Shown here: piece after piece, positions 34,745 through 47,236 of the stretch
Layout: every line of letters begins with the position of its first letter
Numbering within the stretch: position 1 is the stretch's first letter
DNA from: a virus
Virus record (IMG/VR): IMGVR_UViG_3300032246_001883
Coordinates: 1 to 55,595 of that record
Direction: 5' to 3' (one strand)
DNA length: 55,595 bases
The notes under the pieces: generated by a model
Databases searched by the model: none
Told to the model about the DNA's origin: nothing
The model's input: only the letters and a program-made list of their open reading frames with translations
Made by a program: the position numbers and the translations under genes

Positions 34745-36322
34745 ATGGCTAGAGCAGAACCTTCAGATAAAATGAAAAACAATGCGGCTTCAATGGTAGA
34801 CATGAAGCCTATTCGTCCTTCCGTTAACGATAAGAATTTACGTTCCTCTGCTGATTTGCTTGGTGACATTTATAAATTGATGGTTAAAGCTCGAAAGAGT
34901 CAAGTTACAGATATGGAACTTGAAAGAAACCACAAAAAAGAAGAAGAATATAAAGACCAAAAAAGACACAAAGAAATATTAAAAGCTTTGACAGTCAGAA
35001 GAAAACCAAAAGCAAAAAAGAAAAAAGAAGTAAAAGAAGTAAAAAAAGATGAAAATAAATCAACTTCAAATTCTTCTGTGGTTGGTGATTTAGTCACATC
35101 TAAAGCAGTTACCGAAGCTGAAAAAACAGTTGCCAAAGCAGCAGTCAAAGAAACTGCTAAGACAGCTGAAAAAGCAGCAGTCAAAGAAACTGCTAAGACA
35201 GCTGAAAAAGCAGCAGTCAAAGAAACTGTTAAACAAGCTGAAGGTACAGCTGTTAAAGAAACTGCCAAACAAGCTGAAGGTACAGCTGTTAAAGAAACTG
35301 CCAAACAAGCTGAAGGTACAGCTGTTAAAGAAATTGCTAAACCAACAAACATACCAAAAAAAATGGAAGTGTTTCCATCTGCAACAAAAATTGGAAAAGT
35401 AACACCAAATATAGCAAAAATTGGATCTTTGTCTTTATCAACAGCAGCAATTGCAACTATTGCTGGAGAAACTGGTGCTGGAAAAGAAAAACCAGAAGTT
35501 ACTGAAAAACAAATTTTAAATAAAGCTGGCCAAATTAATCGAAATGATCCCGAAAAAGGATTTCATTCATATGGTGTATTTGGTATAAATTCAGGAACTC
35601 CAAAAAAAGGAAAACGTAATATTGTCAATAAAGGTACTTCACTTGATAATTTTATTAAAGATAATCCACAATTTGGTATGAGTTCTTCTATGACACTAGA
35701 TCAAATTGATGAATTGTGGGAAAAAAATGCAAGCAAAGATCCAAAAGGATTTCTTGAGGCTCAAAATAAATGGTATGAAAAATATGTTTTGAGTGAAGTC
35801 GCAAAAGACATGCAAAAATTTAAAGGAGATCAAACAGTAATAAATGATCCTAGAGTTTTTGATTTTCTTGCGGATAGACGCAATCAACAAGGTTCATATG
35901 GATTAACACAATCATTTGAATATGCAAAAGATTCGAAATCACCAGAAGAATTAATTACAAAAATGGCTTCTTTTGATATTGCAAATTTAGAAAATGTTTT
36001 TTCAACGGCAATAAAAAAAGCAGATAAACCTGAAAATTTTAAAAAAGGTCTAGCAGATAGGTCTAGATTAAGAGCGGAACGAGCATTAGGTAAAAAATTA
36101 AATTTAGAAATACCTAAATTAGAAATGAATAATCAAGATGATAAATCAAAATTAGATTCAATTTCAAAAGAAAATAAAGACCTTAAAGACCAATCTAATA
36201 AAAACAAACCATCAGGTTCAGGTAATGTGACAAATCAAACAACGGTTGTAAATCAAACAACAGAGCAAAGGCCACAAAGACCGGACGTTGATGATAGACC
36301 AGCACATCAAAGGATAAAATAA
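34745..36322 (+). CDS. tail/hub protein with lysozyme-like domain
   Basis: A 525-residue protein between gp51-like and the tape measure. Residues 1-115 are helical and highly charged (Lys/Glu). Residues about 132-201 are 12-residue tandem repeats (AAVKETAKTAEK type). Residues about 237-445 look like a peptidoglycan hydrolase: AGETGAGK with E242 as candidate catalytic acid, FHSYGVFGINSGTPKKG, FLEAQNKWYEKYV and the C-terminal QQGSYGLTQSFEYA. That layout recalls tail-associated lysozyme/transglycosylase domains. The tail end is Asn/Gln-rich. Since gp5 here lacks lysozyme, this may supply the cell-wall cutting activity. The domain call is from pattern only. Confidence 0.55.
   Translation: MARAEPSDKMKNNAASMVDMKPIRPSVNDKNLRSSADLLGDIYKLMVKARKSQVTDMELERNHKKEEEYKDQKRHKEILKALTVRRKPKAKKKKEVKEVKKDENKSTSNSSVVGDLVTSKAVTEAEKTVAKAAVKETAKTAEKAAVKETAKTAEKAAVKETVKQAEGTAVKETAKQAEGTAVKETAKQAEGTAVKEIAKPTNIPKKMEVFPSATKIGKVTPNIAKIGSLSLSTAAIATIAGETGAGKEKPEVTEKQILNKAGQINRNDPEKGFHSYGVFGINSGTPKKGKRNIVNKGTSLDNFIKDNPQFGMSSSMTLDQIDELWEKNASKDPKGFLEAQNKWYEKYVLSEVAKDMQKFKGDQTVINDPRVFDFLADRRNQQGSYGLTQSFEYAKDSKSPEELITKMASFDIANLENVFSTAIKKADKPENFKKGLADRSRLRAERALGKKLNLEIPKLEMNNQDDKSKLDSISKENKDLKDQSNKNKPSGSGNVTNQTTVVNQTTEQRPQRPDVDDRPAHQRIK
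35138..35347 (+). repeat. 36-bp tandem repeats (about 6 copies)
   Basis: Five full units and one partial unit with a 36-bp period. Copies at 35138 and 35174 are identical, as are those at 35246 and 35282; the unit at 35210 is a hybrid of both types. They encode the 12-residue motif AAVKETAKTAEK or TAVKETAKQAEG, a predicted helical Lys/Glu/Ala linker. Period 36 keeps the frame, so copy number can vary without damage. Confidence 0.95.
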
Positions 36323-38016
36323 TGGCTAAAATGTCCAGAGAAGAAGCAAGATATATTCGCAATAAAAATTATAATTTATCTAGTTTAATTGAAGAAAACC
36401 TATTGCGACAAGAGGCCGGCCCGCTTGTCGCTGTTGGCCGAGCATTAAAAGAAAAATTTAATGTTTCCAAAAGATTAAGTGCAAAGGCTCAAGGCATCAA
36501 AGAAAAATTTAATCCATTGAATATTATTAAATTTATGACAGGATTCATGGGACAAAAAGCAAGTAATATTGCGACTGCTGGTTTTGGCAGAATGTTTGGA
36601 TTTTCAACTGGAGACATTCAATATTTTACTAAAAGCAGAAGTAGAATGATGGGTAGACAACAATATGAAAGACTTGGAAGATTACCAAGTGAAGGTGATA
36701 GCGAAACATTAAAACCAATTCTTAATAAAATGTATAAATTCATAAAGAAAAATTATGAAGAAGATACTAGAAGAAAAGAATTAGAAAAAAACCATCTTGA
36801 AGAAAAATCAGATAAGGATGAAAGAAGGCACAAAGAGTTATTAAAAGCTCTTGGAAAATTTACTGGAAAAGACACAGGCACAAGCACACAAACAGTCATA
36901 AAAGAAAAAGGGTCAACAGCTGAAGAACTTTTTAACTCAATGAAAATGCTTATTAAAGGCTTGGTGGTAACATTAATAGGAGCCGCTTTAAAAAGATTTA
37001 CTGGAATAATAAAAGGTGTGATTAAGCTTGTAAAGTCCTTAAGCTGGTTATCTCCATTAAAATGGTTGAAAAACCTAAAATGGTTAAAAAATATATTTAA
37101 TATGACTAGATTTATTAGATTTATGGGATTTATTCTCAGAGCTTCTCCATGGATAGCAGCTGCACTTGGTGTTGCTTGGTTGGGTATGAAAATATGGGAT
37201 TTTTTACAAGAACGTAAAGAAACAGTTCCTGAGAGAGCTGCCGAAATGTTAAAAAATCCAAATTTATTATTGAATGAAGAACAAAGAAAAGAATATGAAA
37301 ATAGTGTTAGAGAAGGAGGTAGAAGTGCAAAAGAATTGTTAGAATCAGGAGATGAAGAATCTATAAAAAATGCTGGAGGATACGATAAGTTAGTCAATCG
37401 AGTGAGATTATCTGAAGACCTTGAAGATGGCCTTCTTAAATCACAATCTGTAGAAAATTATGCAAAAGTAAAACCTAGACCAAAAGGAAAATTGCAAGCA
37501 GATTCTTGGGATTCAAAATATGGTCAACAGTATGATCCAATAACAGGCGAATTAAAGCCGGAATTAAGGAAGAAAATTGGATTAGATGCTAAACCAAGAG
37601 ATGAAAGTAAAAGATATATCCCTCCACCACGTCCGGTTGAGGAATCAGAAGATGATGATACAGCAACTTCAATTAAGAATATAGAAAAGATGCTAGAAGA
37701 CGATGATAGCTGGAAAAGTGCTGTACCTGATAATGAGCCACCAAAGCCACCACCAACAGAACCTACACAACCACCTCTTGAAATTCCACCTGAACTTTTA
37801 GAGAGTATAAGGAAAGATGAAGATAGGTTAAATAATTTAGTTAATGAAAACAATAATTTGAAATTGCCTGAAAAAGAAGAAGATAATCAATCAGTGATTA
37901 ATCAACAATCTTCAGTAATTAATAATTCAAAACCACAAAGAGATAGTATACCATCAGTGAGACCCACTGAAGATACGATTTCACGATTAATAGCTGATTC
38001 TACAAAAGTTGTTTAA
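36322..38016 (+). CDS. probable tail tape measure protein (gp29-like)
   Basis: A 564-residue protein; T4 gp29, the tape measure, is about the same size. N-terminal SREEARYIRNKNYNLSSLIEENLLRQEAGPL, then long charged helices to about 200. Two hydrophobic segments follow: about 208-225 (LIKGLVVTLIGAALKRF) and about 270-295 (SPWIAAALGVAWLGMKIWDF), which could enter the host membrane on ejection. The last 200 residues are polar and Pro/Glu-rich. It follows the lysozyme-like gene (stop TAA overlapping start, TAATG), as expected downstream of the frameshifted assembly genes. Confidence 0.7.
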   Translation: MAKMSREEARYIRNKNYNLSSLIEENLLRQEAGPLVAVGRALKEKFNVSKRLSAKAQGIKEKFNPLNIIKFMTGFMGQKASNIATAGFGRMFGFSTGDIQYFTKSRSRMMGRQQYERLGRLPSEGDSETLKPILNKMYKFIKKNYEEDTRRKELEKNHLEEKSDKDERRHKELLKALGKFTGKDTGTSTQTVIKEKGSTAEELFNSMKMLIKGLVVTLIGAALKRFTGIIKGVIKLVKSLSWLSPLKWLKNLKWLKNIFNMTRFIRFMGFILRASPWIAAALGVAWLGMKIWDFLQERKETVPERAAEMLKNPNLLLNEEQRKEYENSVREGGRSAKELLESGDEESIKNAGGYDKLVNRVRLSEDLEDGLLKSQSVENYAKVKPRPKGKLQADSWDSKYGQQYDPITGELKPELRKKIGLDAKPRDESKRYIPPPRPVEESEDDDTATSIKNIEKMLEDDDSWKSAVPDNEPPKPPPTEPTQPPLEIPPELLESIRKDEDRLNNLVNENNNLKLPEKEEDNQSVINQQSSVINNSKPQRDSIPSVRPTEDTISRLIADSTKVV

Positions 38017-38021
38017 TCAAT

Positions 38022-38044
38022 AAAAAACCCCGCACTAGGCGGGG
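38022..38044 (-). terminator. rho-independent terminator for gp32
   Basis: The minus strand forms a 6-bp GC stem CCCCGC/GCGGGG with a 5-nt loop (38028-38044) followed directly by six T (38027-38022). It lies 33 nt after the gp32 stop and between convergent gp32 and tape-measure genes. On the plus strand there is no T-run after the stem, so it acts for the minus strand only. Confidence 0.92.
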
Positions 38045-38076
38045 TCCAAACTAAGTTCTGAGAAAGGAGCTTTAGT

Positions 38077-38952
38077 TTATTCGTCAGCTAACTTGGCAAA
38101 ATATGCCATGTCATCGTCATCTTCTGTAACATCAACCTCGTCAACTACTGGCTTTTTAGGAGCAGACTTAATTTGCTCAACAGTAGTACGAACAGCAGGT
38201 GCATCACCATTAATTCCCAATACTTTTTCTAGGCGGTGCAATAAATCACCATATGCCTTGAATTCTGTATCAACAACTAATGCCGAAAGAGAATGTTCGG
38301 ATTTCCAAATCTTTTCAAGTTCTTCATCATCATCTAACAATGCTGAAGCTGACATGAATTCTGATTTGTCGTAGTTTTGATAACCAGCAACCTTAGTGAT
38401 TTTCAATTTAAAGTTAGCACCTTTCCACAAATCAAATGGATTGATAGGTGTTTCATCTTCAAATTGAGGATTCATTGCTTCTGTGATTTTCTCAAAAATC
38501 TTGGCACCAAATTTAAACAATTTGACTTTGCCTTCATTTTCTGGATGTTTCGGATCAGAAACAATATAGACATTACAAATATAGCTGAGTTTGCGCTTTT
38601 GTTTACGCACAATCTCTTTGTTAGCTTCAATGCCAGAGTTCCACAACTTACTGTTATGTTCACAAACTGGACAGTTTTGATTTTTTGTCGTCAAACATTT
38701 ATCAATAAGCCAACCACCAGGTCCTTGAAAACCATGTTCAAAGAGTTTAACCCAAGGCAAACCATCTTCACCATCAATTGGTGCTGCTGGTAAGAATCGG
38801 ATTGTTGCCATACCATTGCCTGCTTTGTCTACCTCAGGCTTCCAATAATTTTCTTTATCAGATTTACCTTCGTTAGAGCTGAGTGCTTCTACGGCGGATT
38901 TGAGTTTGGCCATATTGCCTGAACTCTTTTTCAAGTTTGAGAAGTCTACCAT
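38077..38952 (-). CDS. 32: single-stranded DNA-binding protein gp32
   Basis: A 291-residue T4 gp32 homologue that coats ssDNA and organises replication, recombination and repair. N-terminal cooperativity region (SNLKKSSGNMAKL), then the OB-fold core with WKPEVDKAGNGMATIRFLP, and the zinc site H73, C86, C94, C97 (CPVCEHN). The C-terminus is acidic (VDVTEDDDDMAYF), the part that binds partners such as gp59. AAAGGTAAATT precedes the ATG. It has its own perfect promoter and terminator, fitting the very high need for this protein. Confidence 0.96.
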   Translation of the reverse strand: MVDFSNLKKSSGNMAKLKSAVEALSSNEGKSDKENYWKPEVDKAGNGMATIRFLPAAPIDGEDGLPWVKLFEHGFQGPGGWLIDKCLTTKNQNCPVCEHNSKLWNSGIEANKEIVRKQKRKLSYICNVYIVSDPKHPENEGKVKLFKFGAKIFEKITEAMNPQFEDETPINPFDLWKGANFKLKITKVAGYQNYDKSEFMSASALLDDDEELEKIWKSEHSLSALVVDTEFKAYGDLLHRLEKVLGINGDAPAVRTTVEQIKSAPKKPVVDEVDVTEDDDDMAYFAKLADE

Positions 38953-38967
38953 AATTTACCTTTCTAG

Positions 38968-38988
38968 TATAAACGGAATATAAACGGA
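38968..38988 (-). promoter_or_regulatory. direct repeat CCGTTTATA in gp32 leader
   Basis: Two identical 10-mers (TATAAACGGA on the plus strand at 38968 and 38979) stand 11 bp apart between the gp32 promoter and its ribosome-binding site. T4 gp32 represses its own translation by binding the leader. This repeat, one helical turn apart, could be a binding site for gp32 on the mRNA or for another protein on DNA; function inferred. Confidence 0.45.
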
Positions 38989-39003
38989 TTATCCACATGA
39001 TGC

Positions 39004-39032
39004 ATTATATAATAATATTTAGGCGTTGTCAA
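39004..39032 (-). promoter_or_regulatory. perfect sigma70 promoter for gp32 (TTGACA-17-TATAAT)
   Basis: The minus strand has TTGACA (39032-39027), exactly 17 nt, then TATAAT (39009-39004): both hexamers are perfect consensus. It lies partly in the 3' end of the nucleotidase gene, 52 nt before the gp32 ATG. Confidence 0.92.
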
Positions 39033-39528
39033 TATGATGAATTAACATTGCCAAGGTGGTTTCCACATCTTTATGATGTATTGGAATTCCACCTGCCTTC
39101 TTCCAATCACTGATAACAACATCTGTATCATCAATAATTATTGAAGTTGGTGTAGCAAACTTATATTTCAATTCTTTACCTGGAACAAAGTTTTGCTTGA
39201 ATAGAATACCATGGTCTTTTAACCATTTGGATTTTTGTGTGCTTAATTCATCATGTCTTTTTATATTTGCTGTTGATGAAAGAATTTCAGTTGGAATACC
39301 TTTTTCTAAAAAGATATTTTCAAGAGTGTTAATAAGTGTATGAGCATTAGGCATTAAATCCAAAGTTGCAAATTGTTGTGTCTGTATAAAATCATCAAAA
39401 TAACCATTGAACTTTTTTTGTGATTCTGCTTCACTTGGATGAATACCGTATCTTTCTTTATATCGCTTTTCAAAGTCAGCAATTACACCATCCATATCAA
39501 GATAAATTTTTTCTATTTTTGTGGACAT
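39019..39528 (-). CDS. 5'(3')-deoxyribonucleotidase-like HAD phosphatase
   Basis: A 169-residue HAD-fold enzyme. Motif I is IYLDMDGVIADF with D11 (nucleophile) and D13, followed by a cap region; ILSSTANIKR supplies the motif II Ser, and SIIIDDTDVVISDWKKAGG the motif III/IV acidic pair. The layout matches the NT5C deoxyribonucleotidase family, which removes phosphate from dNMPs and could tune nucleotide pools during infection. It overlaps gp59 by 16 nt, so it is probably co-translated. The 3' end carries the gp32 promoter. Confidence 0.85.
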   Translation of the reverse strand: MSTKIEKIYLDMDGVIADFEKRYKERYGIHPSEAESQKKFNGYFDDFIQTQQFATLDLMPNAHTLINTLENIFLEKGIPTEILSSTANIKRHDELSTQKSKWLKDHGILFKQNFVPGKELKYKFATPTSIIIDDTDVVISDWKKAGGIPIHHKDVETTLAMLIHHIDNA

Positions 39529-40142
39529 AATTCTCTCATACTTTCTTTAAGGATGGTTTTAAACTTTTCTTTATCGTATTGAATAAAAGGCTTATATCTC
39601 AAACATTTTCTTTGATATGCGGGCCATATAATATCATCAGATATCTTTTTGTTCCACATAGGAAAGAAATTCATAATGTCATCGAGTATCACCAGTGTTT
39701 CAATACAAATCTTGTGTTGATTTGCACCTAATAACAAAGCAGGATAACCAGCAGATGGCACTTCAATCAGTTCATCAGGATTATTTGCCTGTTCTAAGAT
39801 ACTGATTATATCTTGTTCAAACTGATATGTCAAGCGCTGGTTTCTTTTTTGCCATTCTTTGTAGGTTTCTTCACCTTCGGCATTAGAAATATCACCAACC
39901 CAATTTACATTATTGCTTAAAAAGTTGGAAACATAAAAATATTTTAATTCTTCCAGTTTGTATTTCCTGGAAAGTCGATAAAATGTATACTTGTCTTTTC
40001 GGTTGGCAAAAGTATCTTTTGAGACACTGGTTTTACCGCCATACTTAAAATAATCATAACTATCAGAGGTAAAATGTAATTTGATTGCATTGAATAAAGC
40101 AAAGGCTGAAAAGCCCGACCCTTCCTCAAAAGTAAAACTCAT
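39513..40142 (-). CDS. 59: helicase loader gp59
   Basis: A 209-residue T4 gp59 homologue, which loads the gp41 helicase onto gp32-coated ssDNA. N-terminal GFSAFALFNAIKLHFTSDSYDYFKYGGKT is the family hallmark, followed by KYTFYRLSRKYKLEELKYFYVSNFL. Length agrees with the family (217 in T4). It overlaps gp33 by 4 nt (ATGA), reproducing the T4 59-33-32 order with the nucleotidase inserted. Confidence 0.9.
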   Translation of the reverse strand: MSFTFEEGSGFSAFALFNAIKLHFTSDSYDYFKYGGKTSVSKDTFANRKDKYTFYRLSRKYKLEELKYFYVSNFLSNNVNWVGDISNAEGEETYKEWQKRNQRLTYQFEQDIISILEQANNPDELIEVPSAGYPALLLGANQHKICIETLVILDDIMNFFPMWNKKISDDIIWPAYQRKCLRYKPFIQYDKEKFKTILKESMRELCPQK

Positions 40143-40360
40143 AGTGGCAATTTAGACGATTTTTTCATTAAATTTAAATCTTCAGCTTCTTCTCTAATTT
40201 TAGCCTTCAACGCTGGAGATATAAGAGATGCTGCTAAATCTACTTCTAGTCCTATAGTTTCACAATGATATACAATTGCATCCATTCTTGTTAGTCCCGT
40301 ATCTTGAGACAATATCTCTATCATTTCACTAAATTCTGCAATTTCTGATTTTGTTGGCAT
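40139..40360 (-). CDS. 33: late transcription coactivator gp33
   Basis: A 73-residue protein: TGLTRMDAIVYHCETIGLEVD, then ISPALKAKIREEAEDLNLMKK, ending in SKLPL. This agrees with gp33 of T4-like marine phages, which binds the RNA polymerase flap and the sliding clamp through its C-terminal tail to activate late promoters. Its presence explains the TATAAATA-type boxes in the structural region. It overlaps gp59 by 4 nt and the upstream small ORF by 40 nt. Confidence 0.8.
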   Translation of the reverse strand: MPTKSEIAEFSEMIEILSQDTGLTRMDAIVYHCETIGLEVDLAASLISPALKAKIREEAEDLNLMKKSSKLPL

Positions 40361-40515
40361 GATTGTAAAAATTCAATTAGTTGTGGAATTTCTTCCGATT
40401 CCATAATTATACATGATGATGATGTTGGAGGCAAGCCTTTGATTTTAGGAATTCTTTCTTCTTCCCTAACCAATATAATATTATTGCCTATTTTGTTGAT
40501 TTTATATTTTACCAT
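40321..40515 (-). CDS. small protein of unknown function upstream of gp33
   Basis: A 64-residue ORF starting ATG, with IPKIKGLPPTSSSCIIMESEEIPQLIEFLQS. The composition looks like a real globular protein, and it fills an otherwise empty stretch before gp33. But it has no clear Shine-Dalgarno, a GC hairpin (40523-40543) stands just 8 nt before the start, and it overlaps gp33 by 40 nt. I do not recognise a family. Confidence 0.5.
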   Translation of the reverse strand: MVKYKINKIGNNIILVREEERIPKIKGLPPTSSSCIIMESEEIPQLIEFLQSCQQNQKLQNLVK

Positions 40516-40522
40516 TTGAATT

Positions 40523-40543
40523 GGGGGTTTTTATAGAACCCCC
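40523..40543 (-). terminator. GC-rich hairpin between barrel gene and gp33 operon
   Basis: On the minus strand GGGGGTT pairs with AACCCCC, 7 bp with a 7-nt loop, 9 nt after the stop of the barrel gene. The 3' side is followed by AATTC, not a T-run, so intrinsic termination would be weak. It could stabilise the 3' end of the tmRNA/barrel transcript or block translation of the next ORF. Confidence 0.55.
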
Positions 40544-40552
40544 ATAACTATA

Positions 40553-40996
40553 TTAGAATGAGTACTTCAAACCACCAGTAATCACGTTACCGTTAAATGA
40601 ATCAACTTTCTTTTGACCGTATTGATGATCAAATACAAGAACAGCCGACAAGTTTTTCATCACTGGAACTGAAACACCAGCACCAACAGTCATGGCAAAA
40701 CCATTATCGCCTGTTCGGTTGTCCAAGTAGGATACACCAGTACGAACATCAACAGATGCAAAGCTTGTTTTAAAAATATCATATGATGCGGTAACACCAT
40801 ACTTATTTTGGTCATTATCTCCTTTTGTAAAGCGAGTAAAACCTGCTTCTAGTCCTACTGGACCAAACTTATCACCAGCTACAATATTGAAACCTGTACG
40901 GTCAGTAGCTTTATCTTGTACTGCATTTACACCAACTTCAACAGCAGATGCGGAAAGTGCCAAAGCGGCCAATGTCGAAAAAATAACTTTTTTCAT
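40553..40996 (-). CDS. outer-membrane beta-barrel protein with signal peptide
   Basis: A 147-residue protein. It begins with a signal peptide (MKKVIFSTLAALALSASAVE, cleavage probably after SASA). The rest alternates hydrophobic/polar strands (GLEAGFTRF, YGVTASYDIF, VDVRTGVSYLD, MTVGAGVSVPV, SAVLVFDHQYG, ITGGLKYSF) and ends in an aromatic-rich strand with terminal Phe, the signature of outer-membrane proteins recognised by BamA. The size suits an 8-strand OmpX/OmpA-type barrel. Start supported by AAGGAG 6 nt upstream. It lies right behind the tmRNA locus. It could alter the host surface, e.g. to exclude other phages; that is inference. Confidence 0.8.
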   Translation of the reverse strand: MKKVIFSTLAALALSASAVEVGVNAVQDKATDRTGFNIVAGDKFGPVGLEAGFTRFTKGDNDQNKYGVTASYDIFKTSFASVDVRTGVSYLDNRTGDNGFAMTVGAGVSVPVMKNLSAVLVFDHQYGQKKVDSFNGNVITGGLKYSF

Positions 40997-41020
40997 AATA
41001 ACTCCTTATAATTAATAAAA

Positions 41021-41055
41021 TGGTAGTTTAATTCTGTTACGAGGATAAACTACCA
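41021..41055 (-). terminator. 10-bp hairpin at the end of the tmRNA coding piece
   Basis: TGGTAGTTTA and TAAACTACCA form a perfect 10-bp stem with a 15-nt loop on the minus strand, followed by ATTTTATT. It could be a weak terminator for the tmRNA or the 3' structure of its coding piece. It stands just before the AAGGAG of the barrel gene, so read-through would express that gene. Confidence 0.6.
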
Positions 41056-41072
41056 AAAACCCTAGTCTGCGT

Positions 41073-41105
41073 TTAGGCAGCCAATGCGAAACGTGAGTCG
41101 TTTGC
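41073..41105 (-). CDS. tmRNA tag reading frame (ANDSRFALAA)
   Basis: From resume codon GCA at 41105 the frame reads ANDSRFALAA followed by TAA. Together with the Ala carried by the RNA the added tag is A-ANDSRFALAA. It keeps the AND start and the ALAA end recognised by ClpXP and other proteases; E. coli has ANDENYALAA. This confirms identity and direction of the RNA. Confidence 0.92.
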   Translation of the reverse strand, partial: ANDSRFALAA

Positions 41106-41188
41106 GGTTACTTTGTTTTAGTTTTTACACCTACTCTGGTGAGTTGTCCACTTCTGTACTATTTGCCCTGTCGAAACTATGCACCCCC

Positions 41189-41283
41189 ATCAAAAACACA
41201 CCGAGCACGGCTTTGCCACCCATATGTTTTCAGCACCACATAATCAGGTATCCGTGTACCGAGTTGCGTTAAGGATGTGCTTT
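41189..41283 (-). other. tmRNA intervening segment between acceptor and coding pieces
   Basis: 95 nt between the acceptor CCA end (41284) and the coding 5' end (41188). In permuted tmRNAs this segment is transcribed and cut out, the coding 5' end being made by RNase P. It contains small potential hairpins (GGTA...TACC, GGC-AAA-GCC). No gene is visible and I see no known aptamer core. Confidence 0.75.
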
Positions 41284-41349
41284 TGGTGGAGGTGGGGGGA
41301 TTTGCACCCCCGTCCAGAACACATTTCAAGTTGCTTCATACAACCATAA
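41284..41349 (-). ncRNA. ssrA: two-piece tmRNA, acceptor piece
   Basis: RNA runs from about 41349 (7 nt after the -10 box; exact 5' end unknown) to 41284. The 3' part is UUCUGGAC, T-arm GGGGG-UGCAAAU-CCCCC (41311-41295), acceptor strand CACCUCC (41294-41288), A, and a gene-encoded CCA (41286-41284). T-loop carries G where most have the second U. The UUCUGGACG lead-in is standard for tmRNA, not tRNA. It stands upstream of the coding piece, as in alphaproteobacterial, cyanobacterial and some betaproteobacterial ssrA. Confidence 0.92.
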
Positions 41350-41355
41350 CTTCAC

Positions 41356-41384
41356 ATTATACATTAAATTATTTAGTCTGTCAA
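41356..41384 (-). promoter_or_regulatory. perfect sigma70 promoter for the tmRNA (TTGACA-17-TATAAT)
   Basis: The minus strand has TTGACA (41384-41379), 17 nt, TATAAT (41361-41356), perfect consensus at both boxes. The -35 box overlaps the stop codon of the nuclease gene. Predicted start near 41349, a few bases before the acceptor-piece stem. Confidence 0.93.
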
Positions 41385-42034
41385 GTATTCTTTTTGTAGA
41401 ATTCAATGGCTTTTACCAAACCCTCAATATGGTCTTCCGTTTTCTCAATGAATAGTCCAGGTGGTTCATTGTCAATCGCCATAATAGTCACCAGCTGATT
41501 GATAGGTTCACCAACTAATTCTTCATACATTAAAGCATATGCTGTTTCTTGCCAAAAATAATCTAAAATATCATCACGTTGTTTGATTCGTTTGGATGTT
41601 TTAAAGTCAATGACTGAAAGCACACCATCAAACTCACCAATGCAGTCAACACGACCAGCAAGTCCTAATTGTTCAGACCATAGTGCCTGTTCTTGGTAAT
41701 GTATATTGTCAATTCTGTCCAACAATGGAACCAAAGCAATAAACATCTCTTTAGCATCCGGCATGATATCGCCAAGTTTATCATTGTTTAGATATCGTTC
41801 ACATAATGTATGTACATTAGTACCACGTGAACTTGCCTGTCTTGATATCTTATTAGCAGCTTCTTCACCAACACGCTTACGCCATGCCATAATAGATGCT
41901 TTCTTTTGAGCACCGATGACTGTGGTTACAGATGGAAGTTTGTTTCCTGCTGGTGTAACGTAGTATCGTTTGCCATCAGGAAATGTTTGTGATTTTAGGT
42001 CTGGTAATACTTTAGGTGGACAATAATTAAACAT
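41381..42034 (-). CDS. PD-(D/E)XK exonuclease (RecB/Cas4-type)
   Basis: A 217-residue nuclease. N-terminal SVTTVIGAQKKASIMAWRKRVGEEAAN and SSRGTNVHTLCERYL (His near 75), then the core LAGRVDCIGEFDGVLSVIDFKTSKR with D (RVD), D and K (DFKTSK), followed by QETAYALMYEEL (Q and Y of motif III). This matches the exonuclease found in many T4-like marine phages, probably for host DNA degradation or recombination ends. Ribosome-binding site AAGAAAG. Downstream is the tmRNA promoter. Confidence 0.88.
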   Translation of the reverse strand: MFNYCPPKVLPDLKSQTFPDGKRYYVTPAGNKLPSVTTVIGAQKKASIMAWRKRVGEEAANKISRQASSRGTNVHTLCERYLNNDKLGDIMPDAKEMFIALVPLLDRIDNIHYQEQALWSEQLGLAGRVDCIGEFDGVLSVIDFKTSKRIKQRDDILDYFWQETAYALMYEELVGEPINQLVTIMAIDNEPPGLFIEKTEDHIEGLVKAIEFYKKNT

Positions 42035-42049
42035 AATATACTTTCTTTT

Positions 42050-42274
42050 TTAATTTTCTATTTCAGCCAATACAATTTTATCATTTTTATAACTAACATA
42101 TTCATCTGGTAAGTGAGCGATTGAAAAAGAATCACCTCTATCTAAACCCAACATAATTTGATGTTTTAAATATTTGTTATTATTTTTGTTGACAAAATCT
42201 TCAGCTTCTTTTGCTGAATAAAATTTTTCATATTGTCCAGAAATTATGTTGAAAATACAATAAAATAACTTCAT
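42050..42274 (-). CDS. hypothetical small protein
   Basis: A 74-residue ORF, MKLFYCIFNIISGQYEKFYSAKEAEDFVNKNN..., with an aromatic N-terminal strand and a charged helix. I do not recognise it. It sits 2 nt after the Gly-rich adhesin gene and before the nuclease, in the same direction. Confidence 0.65.
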   Translation of the reverse strand: MKLFYCIFNIISGQYEKFYSAKEAEDFVNKNNNKYLKHQIMLGLDRGDSFSIAHLPDEYVSYKNDKIVLAEIEN

Positions 42275-42276
42275 AA

Positions 42277-43773
42277 TTACCTGTTGTAATATGTTCCGAT
42301 GTTGCTATAAATTCCTGCAGGTACAGAAGAACCATAATAACCACGGTTTCTAAAATACGTATAACCACCAGCTCCGGCCCGTTGGTAACCAACTTCACCA
42401 AATACTACTGCAGTATTTTCAATAGTTACAGTTATACCGAAAAGATACTCAAAATCTTCAAGATATACTGCAAATCCAGCTCCACCACCAAGTGACTCTC
42501 CGGCACCACCAGTATTTGGATAAAGATATTCTGATGCTGTTGATCCTCCTGAGCCACCCCAACCGCCTCCACCGCCGCCACCGGTTACGCCGTATGTGCC
42601 GTCACCATAGTAAATTTGATTGCTGCCATACATACTCGCATAGGAGCCGGCAGTTGGCCAGGATCCATCGATTCTTTCATTACTTCCTCTACCATCTCTT
42701 ACTGCGTAATTGGGTGTTGCGCCTGTATATTGAGGATTTGCTTGCAGAGCCGGAGCGCCTGCACCATAGTTTGTGTTGGTCTTGAATGTGCCAATTGTGG
42801 TTATACCTGCGCTACCACCTCCACCACCACCAAGGCTATAAGTAGCGCTACCGGTACTTGAATTAGCTACTGCTGCTGATCGAGTTGGCAATATAAACCC
42901 TCCTCCACTGCCGCCGGATATATAGCGGTCGTATCTAGTTGGGAAACTAGAACCTCCATCATTTGAATTGAAATAAGTACTGGTACTTGCATCAGTACCT
43001 TTTGAGCCAAAAGTAGTAGCTCCTTTGCCAGCTCCACTAGGCGCATAACTAGTACCGTACAAGCCGCCCATACCGCCGCCAGCTCCACCACCACCACAAC
43101 TAAAGTATATGCCTTTAGTTCCAGTTCCACCTGAAATATTGTATAAATATTGGTTTTGATATGTTGATCCACCGCCGCCGCCGCCATAAAATCCAACATT
43201 AGCTGTTGTACCAATTGAACTTGGACCTTTGAGTGTAAGCGCTGAAGGTGTTCCTTTTATCCGAACAGCTGGTCTACCCCACATTCTAGCTGAATCTTGA
43301 GCAGACATGATGCTGTAAGTGCCGCCATCGCCGCCCCTGCCCATAACGCAACCATTCATAACAATAGTTATAGTGTCGTTGGAAGATAAACCTAATATAT
43401 TCAAAGATGATCCAGTTGCTGCACTTGTGTTAGCTGCAAGATTACCTAAATCTCCAGATGGTGGCATAATTATAGCGCCAGTATTGGCTTGTATTGTAAC
43501 ATCATAAGTCCCAGCATTTGTAGCACTATATCCTGATAATGTTGCTACATTAATAGTATAACCATAATACGTTCCAGAAGAAATATAACTTACAAGATTA
43601 ATACGGCTAGATTTACCATAACCATCTGAAAATCTAATTGTAGATTTATCTGTAGGCAATTTAAAAAGTGATCGTACATTGGTATCGTTGAGAGTTAACG
43701 TACTTCTCGCAGTAACTTTTAATTCAGTTTCAATATTATCAACTGAGATTGGTCCTGAAGTCTGTAACGCCAT
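42277..43773 (-). CDS. Gly-rich structural protein/adhesin
   Basis: A 498-residue virion-type protein. It starts MALQTSGPISVDNIETELK and RFSDGYGKSSR, an N-terminus common in phage tail and adhesin proteins. The rest is dominated by glycine runs (YGGGGGGS, GGGGAGGGMGG, GGGGGGGWGGSGG), the same style as the C-terminus of the 1072-residue adhesin. It lies far from the tail block, among nucleic-acid genes. It may be a second receptor-binding tip or a capsid decoration. No late -10 octamer is visible before it. Confidence 0.7.
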   Translation of the reverse strand: MALQTSGPISVDNIETELKVTARSTLTLNDTNVRSLFKLPTDKSTIRFSDGYGKSSRINLVSYISSGTYYGYTINVATLSGYSATNAGTYDVTIQANTGAIIMPPSGDLGNLAANTSAATGSSLNILGLSSNDTITIVMNGCVMGRGGDGGTYSIMSAQDSARMWGRPAVRIKGTPSALTLKGPSSIGTTANVGFYGGGGGGSTYQNQYLYNISGGTGTKGIYFSCGGGGAGGGMGGLYGTSYAPSGAGKGATTFGSKGTDASTSTYFNSNDGGSSFPTRYDRYISGGSGGGFILPTRSAAVANSSTGSATYSLGGGGGGSAGITTIGTFKTNTNYGAGAPALQANPQYTGATPNYAVRDGRGSNERIDGSWPTAGSYASMYGSNQIYYGDGTYGVTGGGGGGGWGGSGGSTASEYLYPNTGGAGESLGGGAGFAVYLEDFEYLFGITVTIENTAVVFGEVGYQRAGAGGYTYFRNRGYYGSSVPAGIYSNIGTYYNR

Positions 43774-43777
43774 TTAA

Positions 43778-44479
43778 TTATAGTCCTTGCCTTTCTTTTT
43801 CTATTAGATACGAACGGACAAAACCAGATCGAACAACATCATCAATCGTAAACCTAATTTGTTTAACATCTTGAATGTTGGATAGTATTTTTACCGCATC
43901 TTGAAAACCAGATTTCTCTTTTTTGTTATTTAGGTCGTTTTGTGCAAAGTCTCCACACAGAACAAACCTACAATTTTCACCTATACGTGTTAGTACCGAA
44001 TCAATTTCGTGGAATGTTGCAGACTGAAATTCATCAAAAACTATAATACAATCTCTAAATGTAAGTCCACGTAAAAAAGATGTGGTCTGAAATTCAATAA
44101 TCTGTTTATTTATTAAAAAGTGCCAAGCATCACCACGTTGTACCAATTCATTGACAATATTCATATAAGGTTCTTGATATATTTTTGATTTTTCTTCCAA
44201 AGTGCCTGGAACAAAACCAATTTCTCTTGATGGTACCGCTGATCGAATAATTATGATTTTTTTATAATATGATCCAGATTCTAATATTTCTTTGAGAGAG
44301 AGATACAAGGCTAGAAAAGATTTACCTGAACCTGCTGATCCAGATAGAACTAAATTTTGTCCATCAAAAAACTCATCAAATGTTTTTTGTTGATTCTCCG
44401 TTAATGGCTTTATTGTTTTTAAGGAGAAATGCTGTTTGTTTGCTTCTTCCGCTGGCGATTTTTTCTGTCTTGATGCCAT
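43778..44479 (-). CDS. phoH: PhoH-like ATPase
   Basis: A 233-residue PhoH-type P-loop NTPase. Walker A GSAGSGKS (about 47-54), KKIIIIRSAVPSREIGFVPGTLEEK, Walker B IIVFDEFQSAT, and CGDFAQND. Start: the ATG at 44479 is preferred, with AAGG 9 nt upstream; a GTG three codons earlier sits too close to that site. PhoH genes are common in marine phages; the role, RNA metabolism or phosphate stress, is unsettled. Confidence 0.9.
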   Translation of the reverse strand: MASRQKKSPAEEANKQHFSLKTIKPLTENQQKTFDEFFDGQNLVLSGSAGSGKSFLALYLSLKEILESGSYYKKIIIIRSAVPSREIGFVPGTLEEKSKIYQEPYMNIVNELVQRGDAWHFLINKQIIEFQTTSFLRGLTFRDCIIVFDEFQSATFHEIDSVLTRIGENCRFVLCGDFAQNDLNNKKEKSGFQDAVKILSNIQDVKQIRFTIDDVVRSGFVRSYLIEKERQGL

Positions 44480-45925: not shown

Positions 45926-47236
45926 TTAATATTTCCATCCTTCACAGAAACCAAATCTTCTTAATTTGACAAGAGCTTTTTCACATTTTTCACCAATATC
46001 TGTACGGTATTGTGGATCATTACCAAGTTTAACTTTATCTACTTGTTTGTATGCTTTATCTTTTGCTTCTGATATTGTATCACCAACACCTGTACATACA
46101 ACAATATAAGAACCTGCGGTACCCCATTCAGGCACATCTTCAACTAGTTCATCACCTATTTTACGAATTGCTTTGGTTAGTTTTACTTCACATGGATGTA
46201 TATGATCAACATCGGCATCATCAGTGATTACTGGAAAATCCAAATATTCTTCTTCATCTTTTTTGTTGAATGGAAAATCTGAGTTAGCCATTACGACACC
46301 AACACAAGTTTTTTCTTCAACCTCTAGTGAATTTTTACCATTGAGACAATCATAAATCCATTCGGCTGGATCACCTTTATGCAAAGGTTGCATGATGTTC
46401 CACATTGGATAACCAGGTCTAGCAGTCCATTCCATTGGCCATGGTGTACCATCTTTTTCATCAACAATACAATTCATGTCCAACATACCAGTGTAACCAA
46501 TAGCCATTAGTTCTTTCTCCATTGGCTTCATTAACATATCTGCCAACAAAGATTCTCTAGTATAACGAATAACTGTTCCCATCTCACCTGTGTTAACACC
46601 AAGGTCTTTGTTCATTTGTTTTTTGAATTCAAAACCTTCTGCCCAAAAATCATGCCAACCAGCAGGACCAAAAATGCCTGTGACAGCAATTTCAACACCA
46701 GGCTTGAATTCTTGTAGAATGAATTTTGTTGCTGGTTTGCCTTTTTCTTTTCGTTTAGTCAAGAATCCAATTAAATCTGCTTCATCTTTTGAAACATATG
46801 AAAGTGTTTTATCTTCTTCTTCACCACATGGTTTACACACATATCGGTTTGGATTATCACGTATGAATTTAATTGCTGCATCATAGTTAGAGAATTCGGT
46901 TGAAGGAATAATTGCACCACCGAATTTCTTAATGACATTTTGGCCATACATTCTATCTAATTCAAGTTTAGCTGCTGCTTTTCCTGGACCAAATATTGGA
47001 TAACCTTTTTTTCGGTAAACATCAAGTTCTTGCATAAATTCAAGGTTGTCTGCTGAAAATATAATATCAGCAACATCCATGTATTTTTTCCAATTATCAA
47101 CTTTATCAATAAGTCCTTGACCTATATGACTAGCTCTGGAACCTTTGGTGTACATTTTGACAGTGTGACCTGCTGCTACACAACGTAGGCACCAGTCTAG
47201 ATTTAGACCACTGGGATCTATTGATAGTATGAACAT
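45926..47236 (-). CDS. purD: PurD-like ATP-grasp enzyme (phosphoribosylamine-glycine ligase family)
   Basis: A 436-residue protein of PurD length. N-terminal DWCLRCVAAGHTVKMYTKG, ATP-grasp A-loop region FGPGKAAAKLELDR, then YVCKPCGEE (ATP-binding Lys), FILQEFKPGVEIAVTGIFG, GEMGTVIRYT and PWPMEWTARPGYP, the counterpart of E-x-N-A-R-x-G-D in PurD. PurD joins glycine to phosphoribosylamine in purine synthesis. The core motif is altered (EWTARPGYP), so substrate may differ. A phage-borne purine gene would be an auxiliary metabolic gene. Confidence 0.75.
   Translation of the reverse strand: MFILSIDPSGLNLDWCLRCVAAGHTVKMYTKGSRASHIGQGLIDKVDNWKKYMDVADIIFSADNLEFMQELDVYRKKGYPIFGPGKAAAKLELDRMYGQNVIKKFGGAIIPSTEFSNYDAAIKFIRDNPNRYVCKPCGEEEDKTLSYVSKDEADLIGFLTKRKEKGKPATKFILQEFKPGVEIAVTGIFGPAGWHDFWAEGFEFKKQMNKDLGVNTGEMGTVIRYTRESLLADMLMKPMEKELMAIGYTGMLDMNCIVDEKDGTPWPMEWTARPGYPMWNIMQPLHKGDPAEWIYDCLNGKNSLEVEEKTCVGVVMANSDFPFNKKDEEEYLDFPVITDDADVDHIHPCEVKLTKAIRKIGDELVEDVPEWGTAGSYIVVCTGVGDTISEAKDKAYKQVDKVKLGNDPQYRTDIGEKCEKALVKLRRFGFCEGWKY

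Follow-up and report, generated by a model that had tools for sequence, protein, structure and literature searches.

A two-piece tmRNA gene in a T4-like phage, with a tag that differs between close relatives as if it were an exchangeable part

The phage genome and its tmRNA locus

We analyzed a linear IMG/VR record over its whole length of 55,595 bases (here, referred to as the window). The initial annotation had assigned the window to a T4-like phage, and this agrees with the PHROG matches, which cover T4 core replication, baseplate and tail families and comprise baseplate wedge and hub, tail tube, head closure, DNA end protector, gp32, gp33, gp59, and PhoH. A near-identity search of INPHARED with 20 kb of the window returned no match. 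Using cmscan with Rfam models and inspection of the sequence, we found that the minus strand of 41021-41384 is a complete, circularly permuted two-piece tmRNA gene. It is part of the gene order PD-(D/E)XK exonuclease, tmRNA, porin-like gene, gp33, gp59, with the following features.

41381..42034, minus strand: PD-(D/E)XK exonuclease, conserved upstream neighbor (phrog_298, E 9e-72)
41356..41384, minus strand: sigma-70 promoter, TTGACA (41384-41379), 17 nt, TATAAT (41361-41356); 12/12 match
41284..41345, minus strand: acceptor half, with the 5' strand of the long helix, T-arm, CACCUCC, A73, and encoded CCA (RF04321 and RF01850 alignments, T-stem covariation)
within the acceptor half, minus strand: T-arm, GGGGG-UGCAAAU-CCCCC
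41294-41288, minus strand: CACCUCC, acceptor strand of the acceptor half
41286-41284, minus strand: genomically encoded CCA, after A73
41189..41283, minus strand: spacer between the two pieces, 95 nt (sequence, MFE fold)
41022..41188, minus strand: coding (mRNA-like) half (model alignments and sequence)
41182..41188, minus strand: GGGGGUG, 5' acceptor strand of the coding half, pairing with 41294-41288
41177-41170, minus strand: GUUUCGAC, in the coding half, 3' of GGGGGUG
41105-41076, minus strand: tag ANDSRFALAA, with the stop at 41075-41073 (translation and model alignment)
41022..41054, minus strand: 3' hairpin, GGTAGTTT-ATCCTCGTAACAGAATT-AAACTACC (RF01850 alignment, fold)
40553..40996, minus strand: porin-like protein of 147 aa, directly downstream, with a signal-peptide-like start; no family match, so the name is a guess from sequence
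40139..40360, minus strand: gp33 late transcription coactivator, conserved downstream neighbor (phrog_254, E 6e-15)
39513..40142, minus strand: gp59 helicase loader (phrog_269, E 1.5e-60)

All the parts named in the initial annotation (T-arm, CACCUCC, CCA, GGGGGUG, and the tag ANDSRFALAA) are present, and they lie on the minus strand, which the annotation had left unstated. Its 7-bp acceptor stem is likewise found, with seven of seven pairs formed between the halves, G3-U70 included. The tag is encoded by GCA AAC GAC TCA CGT TTC GCA TTG GCT GCC TAA, with resume codon and stop present. The 95-nt spacer is presumably removed from the precursor; its ends are able to pair in the MFE fold, lengthening the acceptor helix, and in relatives it is hypervariable, ranging from 20 to 196 nt. 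The 3' hairpin is like that of beta-type permuted tmRNAs, and its stem covaries among relatives when the alignments are compared by eye. The upstream exonuclease gene has its stop codon (41383-41381) inside the -35 hexamer of the promoter. Counting the window, 36 of the 46 related phage loci have a promoter that matches in at least 11 of 12 letters.

Model matches and pairing between the two pieces

The covariance-model search proposed in the initial annotation bore out its reading of the gene as a two-piece permuted tmRNA. RF04321 (tmRNA_permuted) matched 41345-41073 over the full model, 1-213, with 123.2 bits (E 1.2e-23; gathering score 47 bits). The best match within its clan was RF01850 (beta_tmRNA) at 41398-41016, with 120.3 bits (E 3.9e-36; gathering score 84 bits; one lower-scoring clan member was left out). 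ARAGORN reported no tmRNA in the window; among 52 phage tmRNA stretches, it called a permuted tmRNA in 38, and the window copy is among the misses.

To examine the acceptor and T stems, we joined the letters of the acceptor and the T-arm in each of 33 distinct phage sequences. Standard pairs made up 99.5% of pair cells, and 8 of the 12 pairs change on both sides. Double-change cells numbered 56, compared to a mean of 16.6 in shuffled data, and none of 500 shuffles reached that count. Kinship among sequences can inflate shuffles of this kind; the slide control, in which sliding the partner strand abolished the covariation signal, and the many distinct pair types argue against such inflation here. 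Compensatory variation occurs at positions 4-69, 5-68, and 6-67 of the stem joining the pieces, whose variants include GGGGGUG/CACCUCC, GGGCCUG/CAGGUCC, GGGGAUG/CAUCUCC, and GGGGCUG/CAGCUCC, among others, and G3-U70 is invariant (33/33). By the evidence of these alignments, the pairing between the two pieces is under selection. Every complete relative retains the tag frame with its resume codon and stop. The single-strand MFE fold was no more stable than shuffles (z -1.1); a pseudoknotted RNA can be expected to behave in this way, but the value lends no support.

Relationship to known tmRNAs

The beta model scored best for the window and for most of the relatives tested, and the alpha model for Melnitz, Mosig, HTVC008M, and three IMG/VR loci (L129, L131, and L136); one further locus, L094, has an alpha-like T-loop within a gene scoring as beta. 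In a tree built from 140 columns, the phage tmRNAs fall together, apart from the sampled alpha and beta bacterial genes, although this split is weak (62/72). The tree suggests a tmRNA lineage owned by phages, and simple descent from alpha or beta bacterial genes, which we examined with the same tree, may still apply.

The closest known systems are Methylophilales phage Melnitz (MZ577097) and Pelagibacter phages Mosig and HTVC008M, T4-like phages that, like the window, carry a permuted tmRNA between a PD-(D/E)XK exonuclease and gp33. Their tmRNAs are alpha-type by Rfam (107 bits for Melnitz), whereas that of the window is beta-type, and their tags differ from the window's (the Melnitz frame is ANDNYVPVDYALAA). 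Melnitz also has an adjacent glutamine riboswitch (46398-46446, 52.8 bits), a feature that is not universal in the Melnitz/pelagimyophage group; the Rfam search of window positions 38000-44000, at E up to 5, returned none. The initial annotation had suggested that the phage may belong with Melnitz and related SAR11 phages. The link to the Melnitz/pelagiphage group is supported because the locus between exonuclease and gp33 is the same, but the tmRNA type and the missing riboswitch do not follow the Melnitz pattern. The paper that reports the Melnitz tmRNA also counts 53 phage-genome tmRNAs as probably two-piece and finds permuted ones, 17 in all, among 47 Melnitz-like contigs (PMC9004378), and a separate study lists 79 unique phage tmRNAs (PMC11915505). 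The HTVC008M gene (KC465899.1, 145161-145370; 90.6 bits) is not annotated in its GenBank record.

The permuted tmRNAs of Betaproteobacteria (RF01850) resemble the window's in architecture, 3' hairpin, and AND..ALAA tag style. They differ in their tags, in their spacers (5 to 42 nt in those sampled vs 95 nt in the window), and in the T-loop, which is UGCAAAU with G at position 55 in the window and UUCRAUU in most sampled beta bacterial genes. Stenotrophomonas phages of the Menderavirus group and Xanthomonas phage XacN1 also encode permuted beta-type tmRNAs, but these sit among tRNA genes rather than between exonuclease and gp33, and their tags are (A)ANDDSYTVRIAA and ANANTFDYALAA. The XacN1 record contains two tmRNA copies 319 kb apart, and a GOLLD RNA (227 bits) lies about 1 kb downstream of its permuted tmRNA (L110, 2840-3253).

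We searched for the exact window tag, with serine as TCN, in viruses and in cellular genomes. It was present in 62 viral contigs, including phages whose exonuclease is only 48 to 52% identical to the window's, but the 84,980 species genomes of bacteria and archaea yielded a single match. The idea that the tag was copied from a bacterial host was tested in this survey, and its sole cellular match is Jezberella montanilacus, where the tag sits in a one-piece tmRNA. The approximate pattern ANDxx[FY]ALAA matched 226 of 300 Burkholderiales genomes, with mainly ERF, ETY, ERY, and ENY among the matches listed. Permuted genes occurred in only about 10 of 250 sampled Burkholderiales. A 53-bit "permuted" match in Burkholderiales (L210) proved to be a one-piece gene and was discarded. 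Two Burkholderiales genomes, G312 (L209) and G226 (L207), have an apparent permuted tmRNA plus a second, one-piece-like gene, perhaps on mobile elements; the permuted copy in G312 encodes ANGDQYLNVA.

Distribution among related phages

A scan for relatives of gp59 yielded 80 IMG/VR loci, and a permuted tmRNA scored above the cut-off in 45 of these records, which are mostly fragments, as well as in Mosig, HTVC008M, XacN1, and a Stenotrophomonas phage. Where viral loci span exonuclease to gp33, 34 of 37 carry the tmRNA, and its strand and its place between those two genes never vary; this proportion applies to close kin because the loci were chosen by gp59 similarity. The three loci without it (L079-L081) look like one lineage, in which the tmRNA is evidently dispensable, and L079 retains a TTGACA-containing stretch ahead of the porin gene. 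The cyanophages P-HM2 and S-PM2 gave no RF04321 match, and their exonuclease and gp33 overlap. The likely history is therefore an insertion of the tmRNA in an ancestor of the pelagiphage-like group, or its loss from cyanophages.

Two relatives have irregular genes. Positions 2330-3130 of L019 hold nested partial duplications, namely an intact acceptor half, a second partial one, and a full tmRNA with another acceptor allele, and the acceptor stem of L185 has two mismatched pairs. Both are as expected from recombination within the gene, and both could also arise by assembly error.

Variation of the tag and spacer

Two-piece tmRNAs in marine relatives have been reported before; here, close relatives have different tags, which gives the tag the look of an exchangeable part. 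In the nearest relative (L002/L092), the promoter and the entire acceptor half are identical to the window's and the following 1.37 kb is approximately 99% identical; the spacer is only about half identical, and the tag is ANDESYRIAA vs ANDSRFALAA in the window. The change from YALAA to YRIAA consists of one inserted and one deleted base, with the frame and the AA end kept. Four other loci (L093, L127, L130, and L107) have the acceptor half and spacer in common and carry four different tag alleles. Among L105-L107, the difference starts at the tag and continues to the 3' end, and SRFALAA is encoded by other codons, including AGC instead of TCA for serine. Several relatives have tags that end in RIAA, LMAA, RLAA, or RQVA rather than ALAA.

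Mapped on the gp59 tree (40 rows, 15 states), the tag needs 24 changes, compared to a mean of 29.1 and a minimum of 24 when shuffled, which makes tags nearly uncoupled from the phage carrying them. What is new, as far as genome comparison can tell, is that the tag is uncoupled from its phage background and that spacer and tag differ between near-identical relatives. We found no report of tag exchange between close phages in the open-access literature, subscription papers being outside the search. Overall, the variation of two-piece tmRNA genes is modular (acceptor piece, spacer, and tag plus 3' end), with the stem between the pieces kept by compensatory change. A broader reading, to which we give somewhat less than an even chance, is that of a separate phage tmRNA lineage with a cassette tag. 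Tag-and-3' modules and spacers would recombine independently of their flanks, producing phage-specific tags under peptide-level selection, and the phage would thereby rewrite the degradation tag of the infected cell.

Possible function of the phage tmRNA

Phage tmRNAs are known, but we know of no established purpose for them. We estimate a probability of roughly 85% that the gene is an intact, near-fixed two-piece tmRNA of a T4-like phage, driven by an early-type promoter between exonuclease and gp33 and acting via host factors in rescue and tagging. tmRNA works with SmpB, alanyl-tRNA synthetase, and RNase P. A search of 13 phage records, including four that are 141 to 157 kb long, found no SmpB gene, so that host SmpB is presumably used. 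The initial annotation raised rescue of ribosomes stalled on broken host mRNAs, or retargeted proteolysis, as possible roles. We infer the course of events as follows, from expression, processing, and charging through rescue and tagging to a benefit for the phage. A single transcript would start from the perfect sigma-70 promoter, and host tRNA-processing nucleases would excise the spacer. This would give an acceptor piece with the encoded CCA at its end and a coding piece that begins with GGGGGUG, and the acceptor stem and long helix would keep the two joined. Through G3-U70, the two-piece molecule would be charged by the alanyl-tRNA synthetase of the host, and host SmpB would deliver it to ribosomes stalled on cleaved mRNAs. 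The ribosomes would be freed, and the broken peptide would gain A-ANDSRFALAA and be directed to ClpXP. PMC9004378 cites the Caulobacter precedent.

The main gain could instead be the tag itself. With a phage-specific tag, broken peptides of host and phage would be degraded, or would escape degradation, differently from peptides tagged by the host tmRNA, and tag alleles would be swapped between phages to fit host proteases or adaptors. The phage enrichment of the window tag (62 viral contigs vs 1 of 84,980 genomes), the 24 tag changes where about 29 are expected by shuffling, the endings that depart from ALAA, and the recurrence of SRFALAA in different codons all point in this direction. However, the majority of tags still end in ALAA, as expected for ClpXP, and recombination free of selection could shuffle tags; we regard this account as possible but rather unlikely. 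A near-fixed, strongly promoted tmRNA whose tag is unlike bacterial tags and varies between near-identical phages makes the choice testable, that is, whether the phage needs rescue or its own tag.

We considered two other explanations. The RNA might be a decoy, sequestering SmpB or blocking trans-translation in the host, like the tmRNA of mycobacteriophage DS6A, which comprises only the tRNA-like domain (PMC4131195, PMC11915505). The phage records without SmpB are compatible with such a role, but a decoy needs no tag frame, and the frame, resume codon, and stop preserved in all complete relatives argue against it, making it improbable. Less probable still, to the point of being hardly tenable, is that the gene was captured from a host and has no function, being a remnant or the scar of an integration event. 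Integration at ssrA is common, and the nested partial copies in L019 would suit such an origin; compensatory pairing, a strong promoter, and syntenic presence in 34 of 37 loci are not what a remnant would retain, and no integrase is found among the identified neighbors.

Other features of the window

Two adjacent plus-strand open reading frames, 34745-36322 (525 aa) and 36322-38016 (564 aa), have no PHROG or Pfam match. On the minus strand, the product of 45926-47236 (436 aa) matches phosphoribosylglycinamide synthetase (PurD-like) domains twice and may come from an auxiliary gene of the phage. Two further sigma-70 promoters with 12/12 matches lie on the minus strand, one inside gp59 (39833-39805) and one just upstream of gp32 (39032-39004).
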